Below, piece by piece: positions 8,636-20,579 of a stretch of 64,000 nucleotides of DNA (positions are counted from its first letter, which is position 1; each line of letters opens with the position of its first letter). This stretch comes from Candidatus Rifleibacteriota bacterium (lineage in GTDB: Bacteria > Muiribacteriota > Ozemobacteria > Ozemobacterales > Ozemobacteraceae), in contig JAFPZP010000099.1 in the NCBI GenBank assembly GCA_017417215.1, forward strand, positions 1 to 64,000, written 5' to 3'. The translations under genes and the position numbers were made by a program. The notes under the pieces were generated by a model, which saw only the letters and a list, made by a program, of their open reading frames with translations, had not been told where the DNA came from and ran no database searches.

Positions 8636-10102
8636 TCATTCTGTAGGCTTGTTTCTGATTTCTTTTTTCTCCTTTCCAATATAAAGGTGTTTCCCAGCTC
8701 TTATCCAGTCTAACTCAGGGTAGTTTTTGCTTAAATCTATTGAAACAAAGATTCTATCTTTTTCAGTCAATTTATCTATCCAGATTTTGTATGATTTATA
8801 GTTGTAATAAGAATATATAATTTCTCTGTAAACCATTCTGTTTTCGTCTGTCATAATTACTGGTTCAAAGCCTAATACATATTTGTATTTCCCTTCTGGG
8901 TCATTATAATATTGGTAATAAAAATGATTCATATCATCGTTATATATTATACCACCATCAAGAGGTTTATATTCGGCAAACTCTGGTTTTGAAAAGTCGA
9001 CAGAGTATTCTGCTCGCTTTTTCTGATTATTCCAGGCTGAATTTGTCATAAATAGAATCGATGATAAAACGGCTAAGATAAACATCGTATTTCTCATAAA
9101 TGGCTTTTTTATTGATTTCATATCTTCAATAAGTTCTGAAAGTTTATGAGATAACCAGAACATTAAAGCTACTGTGCCCCAGTCAACCCAGAATCTTATT
9201 ACTTTTAGCGATAATAGCCAGCATAATAGAATGCATATGAATAATCTATCTTTGCTTAAATCGTTAAGCTTCATCTTTTTTGAATAGATTGAAAGCATAG
9301 TTATAAAAAATGTGGGAACAAGCCACAATATATTAATATTCCCTTCAGCAAATTCTGTAACAAGTTGCCAATTATATATTTTTTCCGAGAATATGTTTAA
9401 AGTCGCTGTGTAATGAAAATATAGAAATTGATTGAACTCACCGGTGAGGAAAGCTCCTAATATCGTTGAAAGTAAGATAATAAAACTCAACTCTAGTGAT
9501 TGTTTTATTTCCCCTGATAAGAGCAGAGCCATTGGAAGAATCAGGAACGTATACCAGGTCCCATGTAGCCATACTGCTATTGTTAAAAGAATGATAGAGC
9601 CTAAATACTTTAAACTGTAATCTTCTTTATCAGAATCTAAAAACCAGATTTTCAACAAAATAAGGGTTATTATATTCGAAATAATAAAAGGACGGCCGCT
9701 GAGCGTTCTTAAGATAATACTTCTATCAAACAAGAACATTATTGTCAGTAATATTATCCAGGCAGCTTTATTCGGAGATAATATAGTGCCAGTAATGTTG
9801 AACAGACAAAAAAGCCCTATTACACTAAGGTAAATCAACCCTTCTTTACTGATTTTCAAATACCTATGAATAAAGCGTAACAAAGAGTGCCAGCCAGCAT
9901 TATGGTCTGAAGAAAGGCTTGGTTTAATAACTAGCACATCTGACCATGTTTGATTAGTTGTGGAAAAGGCAATATGTCTATTTGCATCGTCTGTAGGCAT
10001 ATAACCTACAGAAAGGATTCTGTAAGGAATAAATATAAAAGTAGCGAATAATATTAAAATCGCTAATAGTTTTTCTAAATTTTGTTCTTTGTTTAAATTC
10101 AT
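8636..10102 (-). CDS. GT-C-like polytopic membrane glycosyltransferase candidate
   Basis: 488 residues with about ten membrane helices and a soluble C-terminal tail. After the first helix comes YMPTDDANRHIAF, an acidic pair in the first extracytoplasmic loop as in GT-C enzymes of the PMT/ArnT type, where it acts in catalysis or metal binding. A conserved tail follows (IIYNDDMN, DWIRAGKHLYIGK) that is shared with the paralogue at 5205-6491. It is the first gene of the minus-strand cluster with gtrA-like, flavoprotein and paralogue genes. The likely role is transfer of a sugar from a lipid carrier to an envelope glycan, inferred from architecture and context. It starts in a 69-base region divergent from the HEAT gene. 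Confidence 0.6.
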   Translation of the reverse strand: MNLNKEQNLEKLLAILILFATFIFIPYRILSVGYMPTDDANRHIAFSTTNQTWSDVLVIKPSLSSDHNAGWHSLLRFIHRYLKISKEGLIYLSVIGLFCLFNITGTILSPNKAAWIILLTIMFLFDRSIILRTLSGRPFIISNIITLILLKIWFLDSDKEDYSLKYLGSIILLTIAVWLHGTWYTFLILPMALLLSGEIKQSLELSFIILLSTILGAFLTGEFNQFLYFHYTATLNIFSEKIYNWQLVTEFAEGNINILWLVPTFFITMLSIYSKKMKLNDLSKDRLFICILLCWLLSLKVIRFWVDWGTVALMFWLSHKLSELIEDMKSIKKPFMRNTMFILAVLSSILFMTNSAWNNQKKRAEYSVDFSKPEFAEYKPLDGGIIYNDDMNHFYYQYYNDPEGKYKYVLGFEPVIMTDENRMVYREIIYSYYNYKSYKIWIDKLTEKDRIFVSIDLSKNYPELDWIRAGKHLYIGKEKKEIRNKPTE

Positions 10103-10171
10103 ATATAAAATAGAATAACATAATGAGTAAAATTAATTGTAAATTTTTGCTCTTTCTAATAAAATATTTTT

Positions 10172-12634
10172 GTGGCTATATCAAAAGAACAACAAAATAT
10201 ATTAGATAATCTTAGGTTGCCAATAAAATCCTTCCGTATTTTTGCATTGGAAGAGGTTATTAAGAGTGGCGGCAGTCCTGAGATATTAGCTGTTTTAGAA
10301 GAAATAAGCGCAACTGAAGATGATCCAGAATGTTCAATGCTTATTTCTCATGCTATTTCAGCAGTTAATAGCAGGTTAGGCGGGACTAACAAAGTAGAAA
10401 CTGTTAGCCTTGATAATGTTTCAGACTTTTTGACAAACTGGAAAGAAGCAGATGAAAATTTGCGAATGCATATTTTATCTAATTTGCCAGTCAGACTACC
10501 TAAAGATGTAAGAACCTTAGGTCCGGAATTGGCTGAAGGGGTTACACCGCTTGTTGCAGCCAGAGTTATAAGAACATTTGGGCGAAATTGGCCAGAAGAT
10601 AAATTTAATCTTATTACCAATAATCTCCATTCTGACAGCCTTGTTTTAAAATTAGCTTCTTTAAGAACAATGGTTCATCTTAAGCCTGATTTGCTTTTAG
10701 ATGAGTTGCCAGAATTATTGGCTTCTCCAGACCCTGAAATAAAAGCTCTAGCAATTAGAGGTCTTGTTAAAATTGATAAAGAAGAAGCTTTGAATCACTT
10801 GCAGGCTCTTCTTTTGTCACCGACAAAAACAGAACGCTTGGCCGGTATACAGAATTGTCCATTTTTGCCTTTTGATATGGTTAAGCCTTTGTTGCTCAAG
10901 TATTTCGCTGCAGAAACCAACTCTGAGCTTTTGATAAAGGCTGGTTGGATAATAGAAATGAATCCGGATGTTGAAGTCCCGTTCAGACTATTTGAAATAG
11001 CAGAACGTTCTCCAGCTAAAAAGGCAGAATTAGTTAAAAAAGTACTGAATGAATCAGTTAATCTTTTAAATAAGTCTGGAATACTAGGAAATCAGTTCTC
11101 TGAATATACTAGAAAGCTCCAGAATTGGGTTAACAAAAGAAATGCTTTACGTTTGGTCAGACAAGTTGTTGCTAGACTCGATGGTGAAACTGTTGTTCCC
11201 GAAATCGAACAGAAAGTTATGGTTGCTGTCAAACAACCATTGTTTAAAGAAGCATTTTTAGAAGCACTGAATTGGCCGATTTCTGATATTGTTAAATCTC
11301 GAATTAAGAAATATCTTGGTATAACTGATGTTGTCAGTGAAGAAGCAGGTAAAACAAAGACAGAAGAAGTTGCACCAGAACAGAAGACTACTTCAGAAAG
11401 CGCTACACCAGCTTTATCTAATTTAGAAATGCTGGCAAATATAACTCCTGAAGATGCAAAAGAAAAACTGAACAATATTATTTCTTTCATTACCAAAAAG
11501 GAATCTGATTTAAAGATTGCAGCTTTTCAGTGTTTAACAAGATGCAGGTTAAGCGGTGCAGAAGATGTTGCTGTTAGCATGATTAAGAATCCTGATATTT
11601 CACTAGCTACAGCAGCAGTAGAATATCTGAGTATTGTTAACCCCGATTGCGTATTCCCATACTTAGGCTATTGTCTGAATGTTTCAGATATTGGAATGAA
11701 ATCTGTAGCTCTTGGTATATTGAAGAACTATGATTATAATCAGGCAGTTTCTTCTTTGCGAGCTATGCTTTATTCGCCCGACAACAAACAGCAGAGTATG
11801 GCTATGGAATGTATCGGTCAGTTTGATTTCGCCTTAATCAGAGATATGCTCACTGAGTTTCTTTGCTTTGATTATCATGAGCACTTGATTGAAGCAGGTC
11901 TCTGCCATTTTGCTGCTAACCCCTCTGCTGATAACGTATATTCATTATATAAGATTGAACAGGCTCATCCTGGTCAAATTGCTGAACAGGCCAAAAAATT
12001 AAGAGAAGCTTGTCCAGAACCTACTGAAGAAATGGCTACTTCTTTGGATCAAACCCAAACAAAGAAGGAAGAATCCAAAGAAAAAGAAATAAAAGCAGCA
12101 AAAGAAGCTGAACTTAAAGAAAGACTGAGAATAGAAAAAGAAAAGAAGGCAAGCAAAAGACCTGCTTATGCTTATCGTTCTCCTGTTGAAATTCCTGAAA
12201 GAACTTCAAAACAACAGCTTATTGCTATTTGGCAAGGCTTATGTGATTTTGTTCAATCTAAGGCTTTGCCTATAACTATAGTGATATTTTTAATTGTTGC
12301 TCCAACTGTTTATTATGTATTCTTCTATTCTGGAGCTTCAGGCGAAACAACTAAAAAGGGTAGTGTAGTTGTTTGTGACCCAGTAATAGCAGAAGGGCTG
12401 GTTGCAGAAGTTGATGACGGTGTTGTTACTGTTAAAGCAACCAATGGTATAACTTACATATTAGTTCCTTTAAAAGATGGTTGGAAAATCCCAGAAAAAG
12501 GAAAACTTATAAGAGGTTTGTTCGTTCCTTACAGAATGTCTTCAAATGGTGACGTCGCAGCTCATTTAGGTGATGCTGGTTATATGTACATTGATAAGTA
12601 TTCTGAGGAATTTAGTGGGGATAAGGCGAAATGA
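10172..12634 (+). CDS. HEAT-repeat protein with C-terminal membrane anchor
   Basis: 820 residues, starting at GTG. Residues about 1-620 are alpha-helical repeats of HEAT type (for example LASLRTMVHLKPDLL, ALAIRGLVKIDKEEAL). Residues about 625-675 are a K/E-rich stretch, and one membrane helix follows at about 697-719 (ITIVIFLIVAPTVYYVFF). A domain of about 95 residues comes after the helix. If the repeats face the cytoplasm, this is a large binding platform tethered to the inner membrane. The stop codon overlaps the start of the ECF sigma gene (ATGA, 12631-12634), so the two products are made together. A role in controlling that sigma factor is possible, but it is an inference with no family precedent that I know of. 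Confidence 0.75.
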   Translation: MAISKEQQNILDNLRLPIKSFRIFALEEVIKSGGSPEILAVLEEISATEDDPECSMLISHAISAVNSRLGGTNKVETVSLDNVSDFLTNWKEADENLRMHILSNLPVRLPKDVRTLGPELAEGVTPLVAARVIRTFGRNWPEDKFNLITNNLHSDSLVLKLASLRTMVHLKPDLLLDELPELLASPDPEIKALAIRGLVKIDKEEALNHLQALLLSPTKTERLAGIQNCPFLPFDMVKPLLLKYFAAETNSELLIKAGWIIEMNPDVEVPFRLFEIAERSPAKKAELVKKVLNESVNLLNKSGILGNQFSEYTRKLQNWVNKRNALRLVRQVVARLDGETVVPEIEQKVMVAVKQPLFKEAFLEALNWPISDIVKSRIKKYLGITDVVSEEAGKTKTEEVAPEQKTTSESATPALSNLEMLANITPEDAKEKLNNIISFITKKESDLKIAAFQCLTRCRLSGAEDVAVSMIKNPDISLATAAVEYLSIVNPDCVFPYLGYCLNVSDIGMKSVALGILKNYDYNQAVSSLRAMLYSPDNKQQSMAMECIGQFDFALIRDMLTEFLCFDYHEHLIEAGLCHFAANPSADNVYSLYKIEQAHPGQIAEQAKKLREACPEPTEEMATSLDQTQTKKEESKEKEIKAAKEAELKERLRIEKEKKASKRPAYAYRSPVEIPERTSKQQLIAIWQGLCDFVQSKALPITIVIFLIVAPTVYYVFFYSGASGETTKKGSVVVCDPVIAEGLVAEVDDGVVTVKATNGITYILVPLKDGWKIPEKGKLIRGLFVPYRMSSNGDVAAHLGDAGYMYIDKYSEEFSGDKAK

Positions 12635-13167
12635 GCTCTGAAAAAGCCTTAGAACAAGAGAATAATCTAGCATTAATTCAATTGGTAAAAAAAGGTGATA
12701 CTGAAGCTTTAGATAAGTTGTTAAATATTTATATTCCTCAGTTAAATTCTTTTTTTCATTATATTCATGTGCCAGAAGATATAATTGAAGACTTAATTCA
12801 AGAAACTTTCGAAAGAATGATAAAAAAAATAGATTCTTTTGATGAAAGTAAAAGGTTTTCAACCTGGCTAATGACGATGGGAAGAAATATCTATGTTGAT
12901 CAATATAGAAGAAAAGTAAAAGGCGAAGAAATTATTGCTGAGGAAAGCAGAGATAATATCGGGAGTGACCCTGAAACAGAAGTAATTGGCAAAATTAGTG
13001 TGGAAGAGTTATTAAAATCTTTATCTGATAAAGAGAAGTTTTTAATAGAAATGAGAATTTTTAAACAAATGCCCTTTGCCGATATTTCAGAAGTAACTGG
13101 AGAATCCGAAACCTCTTTACGTTCTAGATTTTTTAGAACTCTCAACCGTTTAAGAAGTGTTTTTTAG
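12631..13167 (+). CDS. ECF-type RNA polymerase sigma factor
   Basis: 178 residues, the usual ECF length. Region 2 covers about residues 15-90: EDIIEDLIQETFERM, then FDESKRFSTWLMTMGRNIYVDQYRRK, which should bind the -10 element and core polymerase. Region 4 covers about 125-178 with LSDKEKFLIEMRIF and the helix-turn-helix FADISEVTGESETSLRSRFFRTLNRL, which should read the -35 element. Its start overlaps the HEAT gene stop. The promoter-like elements before the two lipoprotein genes 1.4 and 3.2 kb away are plausible targets. A zf-HC2 protein, a common type of ECF anti-sigma factor, lies at 14568-15155 on the other strand. Confidence 0.92.
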   Translation: MSSEKALEQENNLALIQLVKKGDTEALDKLLNIYIPQLNSFFHYIHVPEDIIEDLIQETFERMIKKIDSFDESKRFSTWLMTMGRNIYVDQYRRKVKGEEIIAEESRDNIGSDPETEVIGKISVEELLKSLSDKEKFLIEMRIFKQMPFADISEVTGESETSLRSRFFRTLNRLRSVF

Positions 13168-13194
13168 TTACAATAAATTACCTGTTTTTTTAGT

Positions 13195-13442
13195 AAAAAA
13201 AACCAACAAACATAAATCTTTTGGAAACAGTGAAATCTCTCTGTAAGTTCTAGCCGTTAGACGTAACTTTATACTGTATTCGCACCAGTTTTATCCCTTC
13301 GATCCTCTCTCTCTGCATTTAGGCTTTACCCGATTATTCTTTATTTATGTTTTTTAAAAGGGATGTGACCTGCTTTTAAGTAAAAGTATAGATACTTCGG
13401 AGTTTTCTTGAGTGTCTCTTAGGAAGATTCTGTTTGTTGGTT
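13195..13442 (-). ncRNA. Structured RNA candidate, family not identified
   Basis: No coding frame covers this interval. Its ends are complementary: 13201-13212 (AACCAACAAACA) pairs perfectly with 13431-13442, and 13215-13220 pairs with 13424-13429. Read on the minus strand, the last arm is followed by a run of eight T, as in an intrinsic terminator. On that strand the interior holds hairpins: AAGTAT/ATACTT at 13389-13402 region, AAGTT-TCTA/TAGA-AACTT at about 13246-13270, and a longer stem ATCCCTT/AAGGGAT. Size and end pairing would allow 6S RNA, but I found no signature of 6S, SRP, RNase P or tmRNA. It begins 20 bases after the lipoprotein gene stop, so it may instead be a 3' UTR structure. 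Confidence 0.5.
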
Positions 13443-13461
13443 AAAAAAGATAAGGTTTGTT

Positions 13462-14478
13462 TTATTCTATTTTTATAAAAGCTTCATCTAATTTATTTAA
13501 GCCGTTTGAAATATCGTTTATAGTATTGTCTACTTGTGTTTTAACCATACCGTAGGATCTTCCGCAAAATACAACAGCAGTTTTTATAGATTCGAGTTTA
13601 GTTTTTAATTGTTGATATTTTTCTTGGGAATCTTTTGATGTTGGATTTCTTTTAATATCATATAGTTCATTTTTATATCTTTTAAGATTAGTCATTAACT
13701 TTGCTCTTGAATTGTTCTCTGGTCGGTCATTGCTAATATAGTGGCTGTCTAACAAATAGTGAAGATTGTCTAAGGCATCAGATAAATCTCTGCAACCATC
13801 TTTTATATTTGATGAAACATTCTCTTTTTCTTTTGTAGTTAGAAGTCGTGTATCGACCGTTGGGGCATTTGCTGCTTCCTTGTTTTCTTTATTGTCATTA
13901 TTTGAAAGAGAGTTATTGATCTGTGATGCCAAGTCTTCTAATCTATTTCCAACTTTGACTATATTAGTGGAGTTTGTTTTCGTTTTATTCTCAGAGTCAT
14001 ATGAATCTGCGTTAGTTGTTAGTTTGCTTTGAGTATCACTGTCTTTTTTAGAACTGGCAGAAGTCTGAGTTATTTGTACTGATTCATTCAGTGGATTCCC
14101 TGCGGAGTCTTTGGCTGAAGCTTTAAGTTTTTCTCCGGTATCTTCAAGTTTTTGTCCGAAACTAGAAGCCTTATTCAGAGCTGTATCAACTTTGTTTAAA
14201 CCTGCATCTATTTTCGTTGCGATTTTGTCTGTTTTTCCAGTAAATTCACCTATAGCTTCTCCTACGGATTTCACTGCGGGTTTTACTGTTTTAACGACAT
14301 TTTTTACAACTTCTACTCCTGATTTAATTACTTTACCAATACCACTAACAATAGAGCCTAAAGTATTGGTTAAACCAGAAATTATTTTCCCTAGATCTAA
14401 GCTACAGCCTGTTAGGGTGATTGAAATCACTAAAAAAATAGTAAGTAATAAAGAACCTCTCATAAGTTTTTTGAGCAT
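13462..14478 (-). CDS. Lipoprotein, paralogue of 15165-16304
   Basis: 338 residues. Signal peptide with lipobox LTGC around residues 22-25. The mature N-terminus (CSLDLGKIISGLTNTLGSI, then a V/K-rich stretch) is a glycine-spaced amphipathic segment shared with the paralogue at 15165-16304. A Ser/Thr/Asn-rich middle follows, and then a helical C-terminal half with the shared NPTSKDSQEKY. Function unknown; it is presumably anchored in the outer membrane. GGAG precedes the ATG. A TGCAAC-N17-CGTA promoter-like element at 14535-14561 suggests ECF control. The stop is 20 bases from the structured RNA candidate. Confidence 0.8.
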   Translation of the reverse strand: MLKKLMRGSLLLTIFLVISITLTGCSLDLGKIISGLTNTLGSIVSGIGKVIKSGVEVVKNVVKTVKPAVKSVGEAIGEFTGKTDKIATKIDAGLNKVDTALNKASSFGQKLEDTGEKLKASAKDSAGNPLNESVQITQTSASSKKDSDTQSKLTTNADSYDSENKTKTNSTNIVKVGNRLEDLASQINNSLSNNDNKENKEAANAPTVDTRLLTTKEKENVSSNIKDGCRDLSDALDNLHYLLDSHYISNDRPENNSRAKLMTNLKRYKNELYDIKRNPTSKDSQEKYQQLKTKLESIKTAVVFCGRSYGMVKTQVDNTINDISNGLNKLDEAFIKIE

Positions 14479-14534
14479 AAAAATCTCCTCTCATATTGAA
14501 CTCTCATATTTTTTTATTTTTTATTTATATATAT

Positions 14535-14561
14535 TACGAACAAATAATAAGTTTTGTTGCA
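14535..14561 (-). promoter_or_regulatory. Putative ECF-sigma promoter of lipoprotein gene 13462-14478
   Basis: On the minus strand TGCAAC (14556-14561) is followed 17 bases later by CGTA (14535-14538), with AAAAC directly after the -35 motif. The same elements with the same spacing precede the paralogue at 15165-16304. The layout resembles the TGAAAC-N16/17-CGTA promoters of SigW-type ECF factors. It lies about 57 bases before the start codon. Confidence 0.55.
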
Positions 14562-14567
14562 GAAAAA

Positions 14568-15155
14568 TTATAAATCGCTATCTTTTTTTGAAGAAGGAAT
14601 AGTCTGGGTTGGGTAATTTATTGGTTCGTTGCTTCGCATATCCTCATAAGATACATTGTTTGATAATTTATTTTTTAAATTAGAAGCTTTTTCTTTTGAT
14701 AAATCAGATTCTAAATCAACTGTTTCAGATGCATTTGTAGATAATGAATTTGAATTATTTGTTGATCTGGTTTCTGTAAGATTTGGTTTTGGGGTTGAGG
14801 AAAGGGAGTTATTGCCAAGAGCAAGAACACCTAATGCTAACGACCCGGCAAGACCAACGCCTACAATAATAGATGCTGCAGTGAGACTTGATTTTGCTGC
14901 TCCAGAGGAAGCGGCAGCTACTTGTCTTGCCTGCATTGCTTCTTTTAAGTTTGCTGCAATTTTTGATTTTAGAGCTAAGCTGGCAGCAGGAATAACAGAT
15001 TGCGTAGAAGCCTTTAAAGCTTTGATTGATTCAAGGCTTCTACGACATTCAATGCAAGTTTCAAGGTGAGCAGAGGCTTCTAATGACAATTTTTCGTAAT
15101 TGCCATTAGCTGCTATTGCTTCATCTAATATTTTTTTGCATTTATCTGTTAACAT
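14568..15155 (-). CDS. Zinc-finger (zf-HC2-like) anti-sigma-type membrane protein
   Basis: 195 residues. The N-terminus has a Cys at residue 6 and HLETCIECRRSL near 31-42, giving the H-x3-C-x2-C pattern of zinc-binding anti-sigma domains. One membrane helix lies at about 93-113 (ASIIVGVGLAGSLALGVLAL). The remaining 80 residues are Ser/Asn-rich and probably outside the cytoplasm. Such proteins commonly bind ECF sigma factors and release them on envelope stress. It sits between two paralogous lipoprotein genes, 9 bases after the upstream one. The nearest ECF gene (12631-13167) is on the opposite strand, so a functional link is inference. Confidence 0.72.
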   Translation of the reverse strand: MLTDKCKKILDEAIAANGNYEKLSLEASAHLETCIECRRSLESIKALKASTQSVIPAASLALKSKIAANLKEAMQARQVAAASSGAAKSSLTAASIIVGVGLAGSLALGVLALGNNSLSSTPKPNLTETRSTNNSNSLSTNASETVDLESDLSKEKASNLKNKLSNNVSYEDMRSNEPINYPTQTIPSSKKDSDL

Positions 15156-15164
15156 TTTATTCTT

Positions 15165-16304
15165 TTATTTACTCTTATTTATTTTATCTATGCATTCGTC
15201 TATTGAGTTAATGGTTTCCTTTGCTGTTTTTGTAAAATCGTCAAAAATATTTTTGACATTTTGAACATCAGCAGAAAACTTTTGCATATTTTTATTTAAC
15301 TCATCCATCTTTTTAGAAACTTCTGCATATTTGGCTTGAGATTCCTTTGAAGTTGGATTTGCCTTAATTTCGTTAAACTTTTTCTTTATATTTTCTATTT
15401 CTTTGAGTGCATCTTCTTTTATTTTTGTGTCGTTAGCATTATTTGTTGTTGGAGTCATATTAAGGATCTTTTCAAATGTTCCAAGGGCACCACTCATATT
15501 GTCAACCGTGTTTGAAATTGTTTTTTCAGCTTGTTTAACTTCTTCTTTAGATAGAAGCTTAAAGTTATTTGATGTGGTTGTTTGAGCCGAATTATTATCC
15601 TTTTTAGTTAATTGTTGAGCCATATTCAAAACTGGATTGCTATTAGAGCTAGAAGAAGTTGTAGTCTTGGATGAAGATTTAGAACTACTTGATGTTGATT
15701 TTGAACTGGTAGATTTAGAAGAAGATGATGTTTTGTTTGATGAAGAATTTGAAGAACTAGACTTCTGAGATGAAGATACAGAAGATGCTTTGTTTGAAGA
15801 TTTAGTAGCACTGGTTCCAGAAGTATTAGAATCACTTTTTGAACTGGCTGTAGTTTGAGTAGTTGCAGTTCCTGAAGCTACTTTGTTTCCTGCAGAGTCT
15901 TTACCTGCTTTTATCAGACTATCGCCTATGTTTTCTAGTTGTGTTCCAAAACTAGCTATACTAGAAAGAGGGCTGGTATTATTGGATATTTTAGCAGTAC
16001 CGCTAGCGGTTTTGTTGTTATTACTAGAAGTTTTACTCGTTCCACTCGCCGTACCCGACGAATTACCCGACGTTCCCATAGCATTGCTTATCTCATTCGC
16101 TACCGAAGTAACAGCGTTAACAACTCCTTGAACTACGCCAACGACAGCTTTTATTACAGTACCAACGCCTTTTATTATAGAGCCGAGTATGTTTGTAAGG
16201 CCAGAGAAAATTTTGCTCAAATCAAGACTACAACCTGTGAGAGTTATAGAAATGATAAGCATGAGACTTAGGAAAAATGAGCCTCGTAAGATTTTTTTGA
16301 ACAT
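15165..16304 (-). CDS. Lipoprotein, paralogue of 13462-14478
   Basis: 379 residues. Signal peptide with lipobox LTGC near residues 22-25, then CSLDLSKIFSGLTNILGSI, almost the same as in the paralogue. Residues about 75-235 are extreme low complexity (Ser, Thr, Asn, Lys), probably a flexible stalk. The C-terminal 130 residues are helical and coiled-coil-like, with the shared NPTSKESQAKY. A GGAGG motif precedes the start. Nine bases separate its stop from the zf-HC2 gene, so the two are likely co-transcribed. It has a TGCAAC-N17-CGTA element upstream (16335-16361). Function is unknown; a surface or envelope structural role is plausible. Confidence 0.8.
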   Translation of the reverse strand: MFKKILRGSFFLSLMLIISITLTGCSLDLSKIFSGLTNILGSIIKGVGTVIKAVVGVVQGVVNAVTSVANEISNAMGTSGNSSGTASGTSKTSSNNNKTASGTAKISNNTSPLSSIASFGTQLENIGDSLIKAGKDSAGNKVASGTATTQTTASSKSDSNTSGTSATKSSNKASSVSSSQKSSSSNSSSNKTSSSSKSTSSKSTSSSSKSSSKTTTSSSSNSNPVLNMAQQLTKKDNNSAQTTTSNNFKLLSKEEVKQAEKTISNTVDNMSGALGTFEKILNMTPTTNNANDTKIKEDALKEIENIKKKFNEIKANPTSKESQAKYAEVSKKMDELNKNMQKFSADVQNVKNIFDDFTKTAKETINSIDECIDKINKSK

Positions 16305-16334
16305 AAATAACCTCCTGTTATTTTCTAAAACAAA

Positions 16335-16361
16335 TACGAAGTTATTTTATGTTTTGTTGCA
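16335..16361 (-). promoter_or_regulatory. Putative ECF-sigma promoter of lipoprotein gene 15165-16304
   Basis: On the minus strand TGCAAC (16356-16361) and CGTA (16335-16338) are 17 bases apart, exactly as before the paralogous lipoprotein gene. The two sites also share a T-rich run before, and AAAAC after, the -35 motif. It starts about 31 bases before the lipoprotein start codon. Confidence 0.55.
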
Positions 16362-16376
16362 AAAAAATTAAAAAAA

Positions 16377-17144
16377 TTAATATTCTTCATCAGAATTAAT
16401 TTTTAATTCTGTATGCCAATTCTGATTCAACCTTTTATCGTTCCAAATAGCGTTAAAAAATTCAGGATAAACAATATCATAAAAATCAGCAAGTATAACA
16501 TCTTTCTGATTTTGTCTAAGTTTTTCGCCAATTTGTTTGTTGTCATAATCTTGGGGGTGAAGCACGTCAACCAACTGAAGAGTTATCTGGTAGTAAAACT
16601 GCATTTTACTGCTATCAACTTCTGTGGTAATGCCAATGTCTTTAATTTCAAAAAAGTTAATGTTATTTGATAGTATTTTAGAAGTGGTTTTTGAATTGAA
16701 AGTTTCTTCTCTTATAAGAGTATAAGGTGCTGATTCCCCTTCTATCTTATAGGTTATTTTTGAGGGAATACGATTGTTTTCAGCGTTTTCATCTGTAGGA
16801 TTCTCAAAAATATCACTGTAACTTTGGTGAATAGGAAAAGAGTAAAACTGGTATATGTAATTTGGAGCATCGCCACTTTTGGTAAGAATATTACTGAAAG
16901 AATAGATTCCTGCGTCTGGAACTTTAAAACAAGCCATTTTTAAATCGGCATATATTTGCTGCAAAATATTTCTTGCTTTCAGGGTGGTTTCTATTCTAAG
17001 CATTCCTTTTAATGATGTGTTTGTTCCAGAACGTAGCATCATGAATACTGGTCCTAAAATGAGCATGAGACAGATGGCAGCAATCATTAATTCAACAAGT
17101 GTAAAAGCACAACGGTTTATTCTTTTCTTATTTAGTCTTACCAT
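16377..17144 (-). CDS. Prepilin-type N-terminal cleavage protein (PulJ/PilW-like)
   Basis: About 255 residues. The N-terminus has basic residues then CAFTLVELMIAAICLMLILG, a class III (prepilin peptidase) signal with Glu at mature position 5. The rest is a soluble minor-pseudopilin-like domain. I place the start at the ATG at 17142-17144, since it overlaps the stop of the upstream pseudopilin gene (ATGGTAA) and leaves a short leader; longer versions to 17156 or 17198 are possible. It is the last gene of a three-gene pseudopilin operon. Likely a tip component of a type IV pilus or type II secretion pseudopilus. Confidence 0.8.
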   Translation of the reverse strand: MVRLNKKRINRCAFTLVELMIAAICLMLILGPVFMMLRSGTNTSLKGMLRIETTLKARNILQQIYADLKMACFKVPDAGIYSFSNILTKSGDAPNYIYQFYSFPIHQSYSDIFENPTDENAENNRIPSKITYKIEGESAPYTLIREETFNSKTTSKILSNNINFFEIKDIGITTEVDSSKMQFYYQITLQLVDVLHPQDYDNKQIGEKLRQNQKDVILADFYDIVYPEFFNAIWNDKRLNQNWHTELKINSDEEY

Positions 17145-17605
17145 TTGGGTTTCCATACTATATTTGATTCTAATATGATTGACTCTTTGCGAAACCATAC
17201 TTCAGCCTTACTCATATTTCTGGGAGCAACAGTAACTTTTATATTTATATATTTGCCGCTACTGTTAGGGGTAAGGTCTATTCTTCGTTGGAAAGATTCC
17301 GCATCAGCAGGATACTGTAAGGCAAGTTTGGGATCAAATGTTATATTCGTAAATTCTCCTATTTTATAAGGAGCAGGACATAATTTATGGTTTTTAGAGA
17401 TAGCTAAAACTGTTTCATAGCCTAAGCCTCTGAAAACTTCAATGGGTTCTCGTGCTAAAGAGAAGCATAAAGTTTCGAAATAGGCATCCATAGAACTCCT
17501 ATTAGAGGTTTGATTGAGCATAAAAATAGAAAGAATGACAACCATCATCAATGCCATAGCAATGATGATTTCCATTAATGTGAAAGCTTTTCGTTTATTA
17601 ATCAT
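17138..17605 (-). CDS. Prepilin-type N-terminal cleavage protein (PilV/GspI-like)
   Basis: 155 residues. The leader MINKRK is followed by AFTLMEIIIAMALMMVVIL, the typical prepilin peptidase site and hydrophobic helix with Glu at mature position 5. The rest is a small soluble domain. Its start overlaps the stop of the 721-residue gene by four bases and its end overlaps the next pseudopilin gene, so the three are translated in series. Probably a minor (pseudo)pilin. Confidence 0.82.
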   Translation of the reverse strand: MINKRKAFTLMEIIIAMALMMVVILSIFMLNQTSNRSSMDAYFETLCFSLAREPIEVFRGLGYETVLAISKNHKLCPAPYKIGEFTNITFDPKLALQYPADAESFQRRIDLTPNSSGKYINIKVTVAPRNMSKAEVWFRKESIILESNIVWKPKW

Positions 17606-19767
17606 TCGTTTTCAATAACTCTTTCGAAAGTAACCCAATTTGCTATATTTACCTGATAAACATCTCTTGTCGGAGCTAATGCTTCATCATATGTAATTTT
17701 ATGTGAGTCTGTTTCCTTCCATTGTTTTATATTCAGATAATCAACTGCTAATGAACCCTTTAAATCTAATTTATCATTAACTACGATTCTGCCGTCAGAC
17801 CCCATATTTAATCCTGAACCATCAGGACCTTTCATAGAAATAAGAGCTGCTTCTATGGTTTTCGAAGTATTTATTATTACATTGCCATTTCTGGCAAATA
17901 ATACTACTACGCTGTCTTTATTAGCTTTTTTTATAGCCCCTTTTATATTTATGTTCCTTGCGATTAAAACACCGCTGCCTTCAACTGTTATGTCGCCATT
18001 TTCTCCAAGTACAACGTCACTAGAACAATGAATAATTCCTCTTAGTTTGAGCTTATTCTTTTCTAATATGCCTAATTCTTGCAGTTCTTCAAGTTTATTA
18101 ACGTCGTTCACATATCTTTTATTAAAAAGATTAAAGTGAGCGAAAGGATACTGTGCTTCATATGGTCTGCTGTTCCCTATATATTCTCTGTTATGAAAAT
18201 CATCCTGGCTTATGATAGGTGGCTCATCTTTTAATTGGTAAGAGTATTCGTTATTGATAAAAGTAAAGGCTCTTGAAGCTATTGACGGGGTTTGATTGTC
18301 ATCATGAGTCTTTATAAAATTATAAAGTTCCTCATAATTTATTTTGGGTTTTATGTTGGTTTTATATTCATTTGAATTAAATATTGCACTATAATTATAA
18401 TTGTAACAAATTACTGGTGTTTTAAGAGTATCTTTTACTGTTTGAGGACTTTCTTTTATAACGTATAAATCTTTGGATTCAATTATATCATCTAGAGGCC
18501 AAGGCATATCTTTTTTCACTGTTACATTAATAACACATTTTGATAAATCTACTAAGAAATATCCATAGTTAAAGAATTGTTTTCTGATATCGGAATCTAA
18601 AATTTCGTCTAATCTTTCTTTGGGGTTTATTTTTATGCCATCAAAATAGTTGTAGTTATTGTTCGTAACAAATAAATGTTGTTTTTCTACGGCATTTTTT
18701 GAAGAAGTATTTCTTTCGTTCTTTAAAGTATCAGTGTTAATATGTTCATCTGTTATTGGAAGTTTTTGATGTTTAAATAATGCTTTGTGACCTGTTATAG
18801 AATTAACAGATGTTACAGTACAATCATCTCCTAAATATAATCCTGTATATGATGCTATTATTCCTGCTCTAAATGATGGTAAAAACTTATCAACATCTTG
18901 ATCTTCTGCTTCTAATAAATCTATAACTTTATTGCCATTAGGAATAAAGTCTTTGGTTTTATCAGACAAATTTAAAAAAGTATAATGGTCGTGGTCTGTT
19001 CCGAAGTGAACTTTGCCAAGAGTGGAACCACTGCCGGCATTTATTTCTAATTGTACTTTTTTGTCTGGATTCAAACTGAAACCTAAATCAGAACTATTTC
19101 CTAGAAACTCATTTTGTCCTTGTCTGATAAACAAAGCGTAGTCAAGAACTCTGTTGCCGGCATAGTTTTCATCTCTTTCCTTTTTACTGAGTAAAGAGAC
19201 AACCTTGTAATCATGGTGTCTAACTATAGTACAAGCCCCTGGAAAATTCTTTTTGTATTTTTCTTTGGCTTTGGCTGTTGTAACTATTTCTATTGTTCCT
19301 ATACCTTCATTTTTATAAAAAACATTTCCCTGATAGTTACAATTTCTAAAGTCTACAATTCTTGCTTCAGCAGTAATATCCATGCGGTCGCCCATGATGT
19401 TTTCAGCCATTTTTACGGTTGCAGGGATATCTATTTTTATGCAGTTTGAACTTGTTCTTTTGAAATCAGGTGCATATATAGAAGTTCTGTCTATTATTTT
19501 TCTTAGAATAGAGCTTCCGTCTAAATCATCGTAACTTTTACTATTAGGATTGTCTGTTTTGTCATAAAGGTATTTAAATGCTTCTTCTTGAGCCGCAGCA
19601 GCTATTTGTCTTGCCATTTCTGAGGTTTGAAAACGATGTACTGCGCTTTGAGCGTTTCTACTGCTTACATGAAACTGAACAACTAAAATACCAAGAATAA
19701 TTAGTGTAAAAAGGACAAAGAAAACAGCTATACCTTTTTTGCTATTTGTCTGCCTTTTTAATCTCAT
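17602..19767 (-). CDS. Large PilX/GspK-like membrane-anchored protein
   Basis: 721 residues. A basic N-terminus (MRLKRQTNSKKG) precedes one membrane helix (IAVFFVLFTLIILGILVVQF), then SSRNAQSAVHRFQTSEMARQIAAAAQEEAF, similar in style to PilX/GspK-like minor pilins, although a classical cleavage site with Glu5 is absent. Residues about 600-690 include VVLGENGDITVEGSGVLIA and similar turns that look like a beta-helix. It starts the operon that continues into two pseudopilin genes with four-base overlaps. A scaffold or tip adhesin role in a pilus or pseudopilus is likely, but the large middle domain is unrecognised. Confidence 0.65.
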   Translation of the reverse strand: MRLKRQTNSKKGIAVFFVLFTLIILGILVVQFHVSSRNAQSAVHRFQTSEMARQIAAAAQEEAFKYLYDKTDNPNSKSYDDLDGSSILRKIIDRTSIYAPDFKRTSSNCIKIDIPATVKMAENIMGDRMDITAEARIVDFRNCNYQGNVFYKNEGIGTIEIVTTAKAKEKYKKNFPGACTIVRHHDYKVVSLLSKKERDENYAGNRVLDYALFIRQGQNEFLGNSSDLGFSLNPDKKVQLEINAGSGSTLGKVHFGTDHDHYTFLNLSDKTKDFIPNGNKVIDLLEAEDQDVDKFLPSFRAGIIASYTGLYLGDDCTVTSVNSITGHKALFKHQKLPITDEHINTDTLKNERNTSSKNAVEKQHLFVTNNNYNYFDGIKINPKERLDEILDSDIRKQFFNYGYFLVDLSKCVINVTVKKDMPWPLDDIIESKDLYVIKESPQTVKDTLKTPVICYNYNYSAIFNSNEYKTNIKPKINYEELYNFIKTHDDNQTPSIASRAFTFINNEYSYQLKDEPPIISQDDFHNREYIGNSRPYEAQYPFAHFNLFNKRYVNDVNKLEELQELGILEKNKLKLRGIIHCSSDVVLGENGDITVEGSGVLIARNINIKGAIKKANKDSVVVLFARNGNVIINTSKTIEAALISMKGPDGSGLNMGSDGRIVVNDKLDLKGSLAVDYLNIKQWKETDSHKITYDEALAPTRDVYQVNIANWVTFERVIENE

Positions 19768-19791
19768 TTCTTAAAACCTTTTCAAATAAAA

Positions 19792-20271
19792 TTATAATGG
19801 TTGCCAGTTTTCTATTCTTTCTTTTAAGAACTTTATGTGAGTTTTCGAGATTTTTTGTTCTAATTCTATCCTAGAACGTTTGGCATCTTCGTCTCCATGT
19901 TTTTCTGCCAAACTATACCAGAAATATGCTTCTTCTAAATCTTGTTCAACACCCTCACCATTTTCGTAGAGTGTTGCTAAACTAAATTGAGCATTGGGGT
20001 GGTTTCTTTCGGCGGCTTTGGTATACCATCTGGCGGCCTGAACAAAGTCTTGTTTGACATGCATTCCACAATAGTACATGAAAGCTATGTTAACCATCGC
20101 CTCTGCATCGCCTTTTTCGGCTTTAGGCAGGAATATTTCTGCTGCTTCTTTATAATCACCTCTAAGATAAGCCTTAGAAGCTTCTTTAAGGTTTAACTCC
20201 TTTTTACAACAACCAGTTGCAAAAACCAGCAGTACTGAGAACAAAATTATAAAAGCTGTAGTCTTTTTCAT
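19792..20271 (-). CDS. Sel1-repeat lipoprotein
   Basis: 159 residues. Signal peptide with lipobox ATGC near residues 18-21. Then come three Sel1-type helical repeats: AYLRGDYKEAAEIFLPKAEKG, AMVNIAFMYYCGMHVKQDF and AQFSLATLYENGEGVEQDL, each with the usual A-x-x-x-L/W spacing. Sel1 repeats mediate protein-protein contacts. It lies 24 bases upstream of the 721-residue pilus-type gene and may be the first gene of that operon. Function beyond binding is not readable. Confidence 0.85.
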   Translation of the reverse strand: MKKTTAFIILFSVLLVFATGCCKKELNLKEASKAYLRGDYKEAAEIFLPKAEKGDAEAMVNIAFMYYCGMHVKQDFVQAARWYTKAAERNHPNAQFSLATLYENGEGVEQDLEEAYFWYSLAEKHGDEDAKRSRIELEQKISKTHIKFLKERIENWQPL

Positions 20272-20579
20272 TCTGATTATTTCCTAAAGAGTTGTTATTA
20301 AAATCCTATATGTTTTTTAGCTATTTGTCAAAATTTACTCTATATTTCTTATTTATCAAGAAAAAGTATTTAGAAGAAATAAAAAAAAATAAAAAAAATA
20401 TAAACTAGTGAAATTTGATAGAAAAATTAAGCAAAATAAAGAAAAATTATAAAAATTGCCAATAACTTTCTAAAATTAAAGTATTAAATGAAATTAATCC
20501 CACCGAAAGATATATTAAGAGGACTAAGACGAATCGGATAACCCCCCTCTTGGCCTGAAAAATTAAGGAGCAAACCTAA
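20272..20579 (+). other. AT-rich intergenic leader region
   Basis: No gene is seen. The first part is nearly pure A/T. A possible promoter is TTGCCA (20456-20461), 17 bases, AAGTAT (20479-20484). Downstream, AAGAGG (20517-20522) can pair with CCTCTT (20546-20551) around a GC-richer loop, just before a GGAG ribosome binding site for the small ORF at 20580. This could be a structured 5' UTR, but I cannot match it to a known riboswitch. Confidence 0.35.

Follow-up and report, generated by a model that had tools for sequence, protein, structure and literature searches.

Two lipoprotein genes of a Candidatus Rifleibacteriota bacterium are each preceded by the same two-part element, and this locus raises the question of whether the pair are promoters and, if so, which sigma factor reads them. 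In the 64,000-nucleotide stretch of DNA analyzed here (the window), both copies lie on the minus strand. The copy that we term P1 runs from 16361 to 16335 and reads TGCAAC AAAACATAAAATAACTT CGTA, and the copy that we term P2 runs from 14561 to 14535 and reads TGCAAC AAAACTTATTATTTGTT CGTA; read directly, both sites have the TGCAAC-N17-CGTA form given in the original prediction. The −35-like box TGCAAC occupies 16356 to 16361 in P1 and 14556 to 14561 in P2, and the −10-like box CGTA, with TT directly before it in both cases, occupies 16335 to 16338 and 14535 to 14538, respectively. The distance from GCAAC to CGTA is 17 bases and is identical in the two copies, and the ATG codons of the two lipobox-bearing genes lie 83 (P2) and 57 (P1) nt from the start of the element. 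A TTGAAA-like stretch is found about 7 to 12 nt behind CGTA in P1 and in the aligned relatives; it is loosely conserved and falls close to where transcription is expected to begin.

In the order of minus-strand transcription, the locus comprises a Sel1-repeat lipoprotein gene (19792–20271), a PilX-like gene, two minor pilin genes, P1, lipoprotein 1, a gene for a 195-residue protein, P2, and lipoprotein 2. The PilX-like membrane protein (17602–19767), first of the minor-pilin cluster, has no family match in Pfam or NCBIfam and is named from its position, its N-terminal helix, and its conserved place in relatives. It is followed by a PilV-like minor pilin (17138–17605; N_methyl 5.3e-6, weak PilV match at 0.0023) and, as the third member, by a minor pilin or pseudopilin (16377–17198; N_methyl 2.1e-4, weak HpsC-like match at 4.8e-6, below the cut-off). 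Lipoprotein 1 (15165–16304, 379 residues), the first gene behind P1, has homologs in the genus and family, and lipoprotein 2 (13462–14478, 338 residues) lies behind P2. Both carry the lipobox ITLTGC, and they are paralogs (BLASTP 1e-28) with 45% identity across their first 160 residues. The gene between them (14568–15155, minus strand), overlooked in the original prediction, starts 9 nt behind lipoprotein 1 and is presumably part of the same transcript, from P1.

Two plus-strand genes face these minus-strand genes in convergent orientation: one for a HEAT-repeat membrane protein (10172–12634; HEAT_2 3.2e-14) and one for an extracytoplasmic function (ECF) sigma factor, the stop codon of the former overlapping the start of the latter (ATGA). 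The two are paired likewise in relatives; by hand count, about 28 ECF matches in the window and relatives have a HEAT gene within 3 kb upstream on the same strand, and in three genomes (G006, G014, and G019) the place of the HEAT gene is taken by a short transmembrane protein of 124 to 172 residues. The spacer between the ECF gene and lipoprotein 2 (13168–13461) contains near-perfect 15-nt inverted arms, AACCAACAAACATAA and TTCTGTTTGTTGGTT, 212 nt apart. A structured RNA in this spacer was considered and rejected (no Rfam family, a fold z of −1.7, a single copy), and the spacer sequence is absent from three relatives of the genus.

The ECF gene proposed earlier at 12631–13167 is confirmed by Pfam, with matches to Sigma70_r2 (3.7e-13) and Sigma70_r4_2 (1.2e-7) that both exceed their cut-offs, and by NCBIfam (sigma70-ECF 7.9e-24; TIGR02937 84.1 bits against a cut-off of 42.9). 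Its 178-residue product has regions 2 and 4 and no region 3, the make-up and approximate length (about 180 residues) of an ECF factor, and its recognition helix, LRSRFFR, is nearly invariant among 12 orthologs. Five Sigma70_r2 genes were found in the assembly of this genome (2.57 Mb, 69% complete). The neighbor of P1 and P2 is the one ECF-type gene among them, and the remaining four are longer, with an RpoD- and FliA-like make-up.

We regard the 195-residue protein, from its sequence features and genomic setting, as a predicted membrane-anchored anti-sigma factor. It combines the motif C6...H30xxxC34xxC37 with one transmembrane helix at about residues 95 to 114 by hydropathy, and C6, H30, C34, and C37 are invariant across 11 aligned sequences. 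Class I anti-sigma domains (ASDI, zinc type) are defined by the motif HxxxCxxC, which spans helices 2 and 3 (PMC7406223), and the protein carries this motif, with model helices at residues 4–15, 25–33, and 35–53. Each single HMM or structural match of the window's protein is weak: NCBIfam antisigma scores 6.7e-4, below its cut-off; Pfam zf-HC2 gives no match even at E 0.1; and the AF2 model, well modeled only in the short-helix bundle of residues 1–50 (pLDDT 81–87), has as its top PDB matches RslA chains at a TMt of 0.51 to 0.54, weak and with E>3. A profile of the family searched against the PDB finds the anti-sigma chains 4m0n/4m0h (E 5e-5) and, weakly, RsiW (E=0.16). A FecR domain (PF04773) is present in seven of the 11 aligned relatives and absent from the window's protein and from its own genus, which leaves this protein outside the FecR family. 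The assignment combines these individually weak matches with a conserved linkage to the ECF gene in relatives; that the two proteins bind each other we infer.

Could an ECF factor other than the neighboring one read the elements? Such a protein would be one that is absent from the 69%-complete assembly, with the neighbor serving other targets. Relatives of other genera do have several ECF genes, and one of them has an ECF/anti-sigma/pilin locus with a similar element of its own. That locus (L170, G011:C23) begins with a pilin cluster and the genes of two secreted proteins, after which an ECF gene and the gene of a zinc-type anti-sigma factor follow in the same orientation; TTGCAAC-N15-TTCATA precedes the cluster, and there is a second, similar site farther along. 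Against this reading, the element, the anti-sigma gene, and the ECF gene are linked in most genomes, and three genomes of the same genus (G001, G002, and G003) each yield a single ECF match at E<=1e-10. We judge it very unlikely that a different ECF protein uses P1 and P2, and assignment to the adjacent factor remains the preferred reading.

By a first-order Markov estimate, 0.037 exact matches to TGCAAC-N17-CGTA would be expected in the window, where two are seen. With up to two mismatches allowed, 31 matches are seen against 31.7 expected, which is chance level, so that only the strict form is informative. The whole assembly was searched for exact and one-mismatch forms. The exact N16/17 pattern occurs six times, against five times for a backwards control, and the total is not enriched. 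The original prediction looked to such a scan for a wider regulon. P1 and P2 do precede genes; the other four exact matches are inside or antisense to ORFs, as are four one-mismatch sites, and no wider regulon is visible in this genome. Because only P1 and P2 stand before genes here, the regulon looks narrow and local. Pilin-like genes are common in these bacteria, with 59 N_methyl matches in this genome (G000) and about 85 apiece in the relatives G002 and G003, and the nearness of the element to pilin genes is for this reason suggestive and not decisive. At none of the other pilin loci of this genome does the exact element occupy a promoter position, which argues against its being a promoter of pilin genes in general.

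We compared the stretch from the minor-pilin cluster to the next gene at 12 loci, those of this genome and of 11 Riflebacteria relatives in five genera, which were found by lipoprotein and ECF searches; some are Candidatus Riflebacteria from the rumen and elsewhere. At all 12 loci, TG(C/T)AAC-N17-CGTA follows the minor-pilin cluster and precedes the lipoprotein or anti-sigma gene, at the same place as P1. TGCAAC is exact in 11 of them (G001 has TGTAAC), and CGTA is present in all 12, with the preceding T in most. Between genera, the ten box letters are 99% identical and the spacer 32%, the former figure being partly a matter of construction, as the pattern itself served to choose the sites; what does not depend on this choice is that each locus has an element in the same place. 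The lipoprotein gene is missing in G006, G014, and G019, and in these genomes the element immediately precedes the anti-sigma gene, which ties it to the sigma/anti-sigma module and not to the lipoprotein family. No element was found near the distant lipoprotein homologs of one genus (g5: G007, G015, and G020); the lipoprotein gene behind the element at G013:C74 adjoins neither an ECF nor an anti-sigma gene; and G018 (84% complete) has two promoter-type matches, yet no close ECF ortholog was found in it.

All 24 family genomes together yield 24 matches to TGCAAC-N15-TTCGTA, against five for the reversed control. We scored promoter position automatically, as little ORF overlap together with a same-strand start 20 to 250 nt downstream. 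By this rule, 17 of the 24 matches are promoter-positioned, compared with 3.0% of random places (binomial p 4e-21, a value that overstates the independent evidence, as the matches are partly orthologous), and one further match, at L045, looks promoter-like by eye. The targets of the promoter-positioned matches fall into several unrelated groups, one being the lipoprotein locus itself. The others include a secreted-protein gene that follows a different pilin cluster (G006, G014, G018, and G021, and with one mismatch G011 and G019), the starts of PilX-like clusters (G013 and G018), a secreted protein at the head of a pilin cluster (G002), and further targets in G003 and G009. With one mismatch allowed, the excess over the control in the family genomes is small, which suggests that the regulon is small. 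In other families of the phylum, five exact matches in 16 genomes lie mostly in ORFs, with two possibly before genes, and give no clear signal.

These comparisons also bear on the main alternative named in the original prediction, that a lipoprotein gene and the DNA ahead of it were copied together, the shared letters being an undiverged remnant rather than a special promoter. The paralogy of the two lipoproteins fits such a history, as does the match between P1 and P2 at 32 of 40 bases, which extends beyond the boxes. In G002, moreover, the gap between the anti-sigma and ECF genes is about 13 nt, where the present genome has lipoprotein 2 and a 294-nt spacer. From this one closely comparable relative, which has no second lipoprotein gene at that junction, P2 probably arose when the lipoprotein gene and its promoter were duplicated in this lineage. 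As a full explanation, shared descent is refuted by boxes that are kept in five genera while the spacer is not, by the element that remains where the lipoprotein gene is absent, and by its presence before unrelated secreted-protein and pilin genes of relatives; we consider it very unlikely that descent is all there is to the similarity. Least probable of all is that an ordinary regulator binds the conserved pair or that the pair is a variant housekeeping sigma-70 promoter: TTGCAA does match TTGACA at four of six places and activators also have two-part sites, but the boxes of P1 and P2 show no dyad symmetry, CGTA is unlike TATAAT, a sigma-70 promoter scan of 10000–20400 has no match at either site, and the many other pilin genes of this genome lack the exact element.

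We think it likely that P1 and P2 are promoters of the adjacent ECF factor and that P1 provides negative feedback through the anti-sigma factor. Footprinting, the enrichment in promoter positions across the family, the linkage to the anti-sigma gene, and the lack of any other ECF gene among those found all support both the ECF-promoter reading and the tie to the neighboring sigma gene that had been proposed. In their AAC-containing −35 box, spacer of 16 to 17 nt, CGT-type −10 box, and conservation before target genes, seen at the 12 loci and in the family-wide search, the elements have the features of ECF promoters. RNA polymerase carrying the ECF factor would use P1 and P2 with TGCAAC as the −35 box, a 17-nt spacer, and (TT)CGTA as the −10 box. 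P1 would transcribe lipoprotein 1 and then the gene of the membrane-anchored, zinc-type anti-sigma factor. A signal from the envelope, for which the condition of the minor-pilin machine encoded directly upstream is a plausible candidate, would release the ECF factor, which would then raise production of the lipoprotein and of more of its own inhibitor, closing a negative feedback loop. P2 would drive the second lipoprotein. The ECF gene, coupled to that of the HEAT-repeat protein and without an element, would be expressed from elsewhere. Self-activation of the HEAT and ECF genes was considered and rejected, as the 250 nt ahead of the HEAT gene contain no exact or one-mismatch copy of the element, either in the window or in eight relatives; the loop would for this reason be one of negative feedback via the anti-sigma gene and not of self-activation.

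Among known systems, the closest appear to be SigW/RsiW of Bacillus subtilis, in promoter geometry and anti-sigma make-up, and FecI/FecR cell-surface signaling, in the FecR domain of the relatives' proteins. SigW promoters have the form TGNAAC-N16/17-CGTA, with TGAAAC as the −35 box. The likeness to SigW-type promoters drawn in the original prediction holds for this geometry, with TGCAAC here in place of TGAAAC, and does not extend to the protein, which scores 59.5 bits with PRK09641 and 51.2 bits with TIGR02948, against SigW-family cut-offs of 209 and 243.1. Both sigma factors have regions 2 and 4, and both anti-sigma proteins have an HxxxCxxC N-terminus and one transmembrane helix, RsiW also being the weak match of the PDB profile search. 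Unlike sigW and rsiW, however, the sigma and anti-sigma genes here converge instead of sharing an operon, the ECF gene has a HEAT gene coupled to it, and in most relatives the anti-sigma protein has a FecR domain at its end. That domain, present in proteins whose profile matches 4m0n/4m0h and weakly PupR, recalls FecI/FecR, whereas at this locus we noticed no TonB-dependent receptor gene, the N-terminus is a C/HxxxCxxC anti-sigma domain, and the window's genus lacks the FecR domain.

On TGCAAC with ECF factors, the literature searched yielded only work on Streptomyces and Pseudomonas. At least one listed target of Streptomyces sigmaE has the site TGCAAC-N17-CGTC (PMC6767563), which places the geometry of P1 and P2 within that of known ECF promoters. 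The sigmaE of Streptomyces coelicolor likewise governs a cell-envelope ECF regulon, but with mixed −35 letters, a CGTC-type −10 box, a large regulon, and a host from a different phylum. In Nostoc punctiforme, a cascade of SigJ, SigF, and SigC acts on the genes of the type IV pilus and of the hps pseudopilins (PMC6495340), another case of alternative sigma factors at (pseudo)pilin genes, and the third minor pilin here is weakly HpsC-like; SigJ differs in that its reported promoter combines an extended −10 with a weak −35 region (PMC6495340), in contrast to the two boxes found here. What is unusual in the present locus is the convergence of sigma and anti-sigma genes, the coupling of ECF and HEAT genes, and the placement at the end of a minor-pilin cluster.

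Riflebacteria are a little-studied phylum, for whose sigma factors we found no paper in the literature searched, and the elements described here offer a candidate, testable promoter for one of its ECF factors, here of the stress type. The case also illustrates that a motif seen in two copies in one window can be decided upon through the same locus in relatives. The analysis points to an ECF/anti-sigma switch linked to minor-pilin clusters, a link for which the literature searched held no close precedent. More tentatively, and with the recurrence of TGCAAC-N15-TTCGTA before other minor-pilin clusters and secreted proteins of relatives in mind, Riflebacteria might possess a class of small ECF modules whose sigma factor is translationally coupled to a HEAT-repeat membrane protein and held in check by a zinc- or FecR-type anti-sigma factor, itself expressed from a promoter that the sigma factor reads, with the whole reporting on minor-pilin machines. 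We hold this broader picture to be possible rather than probable; if it is true, the HEAT protein would add a third component, not described so far, to the signaling chain.
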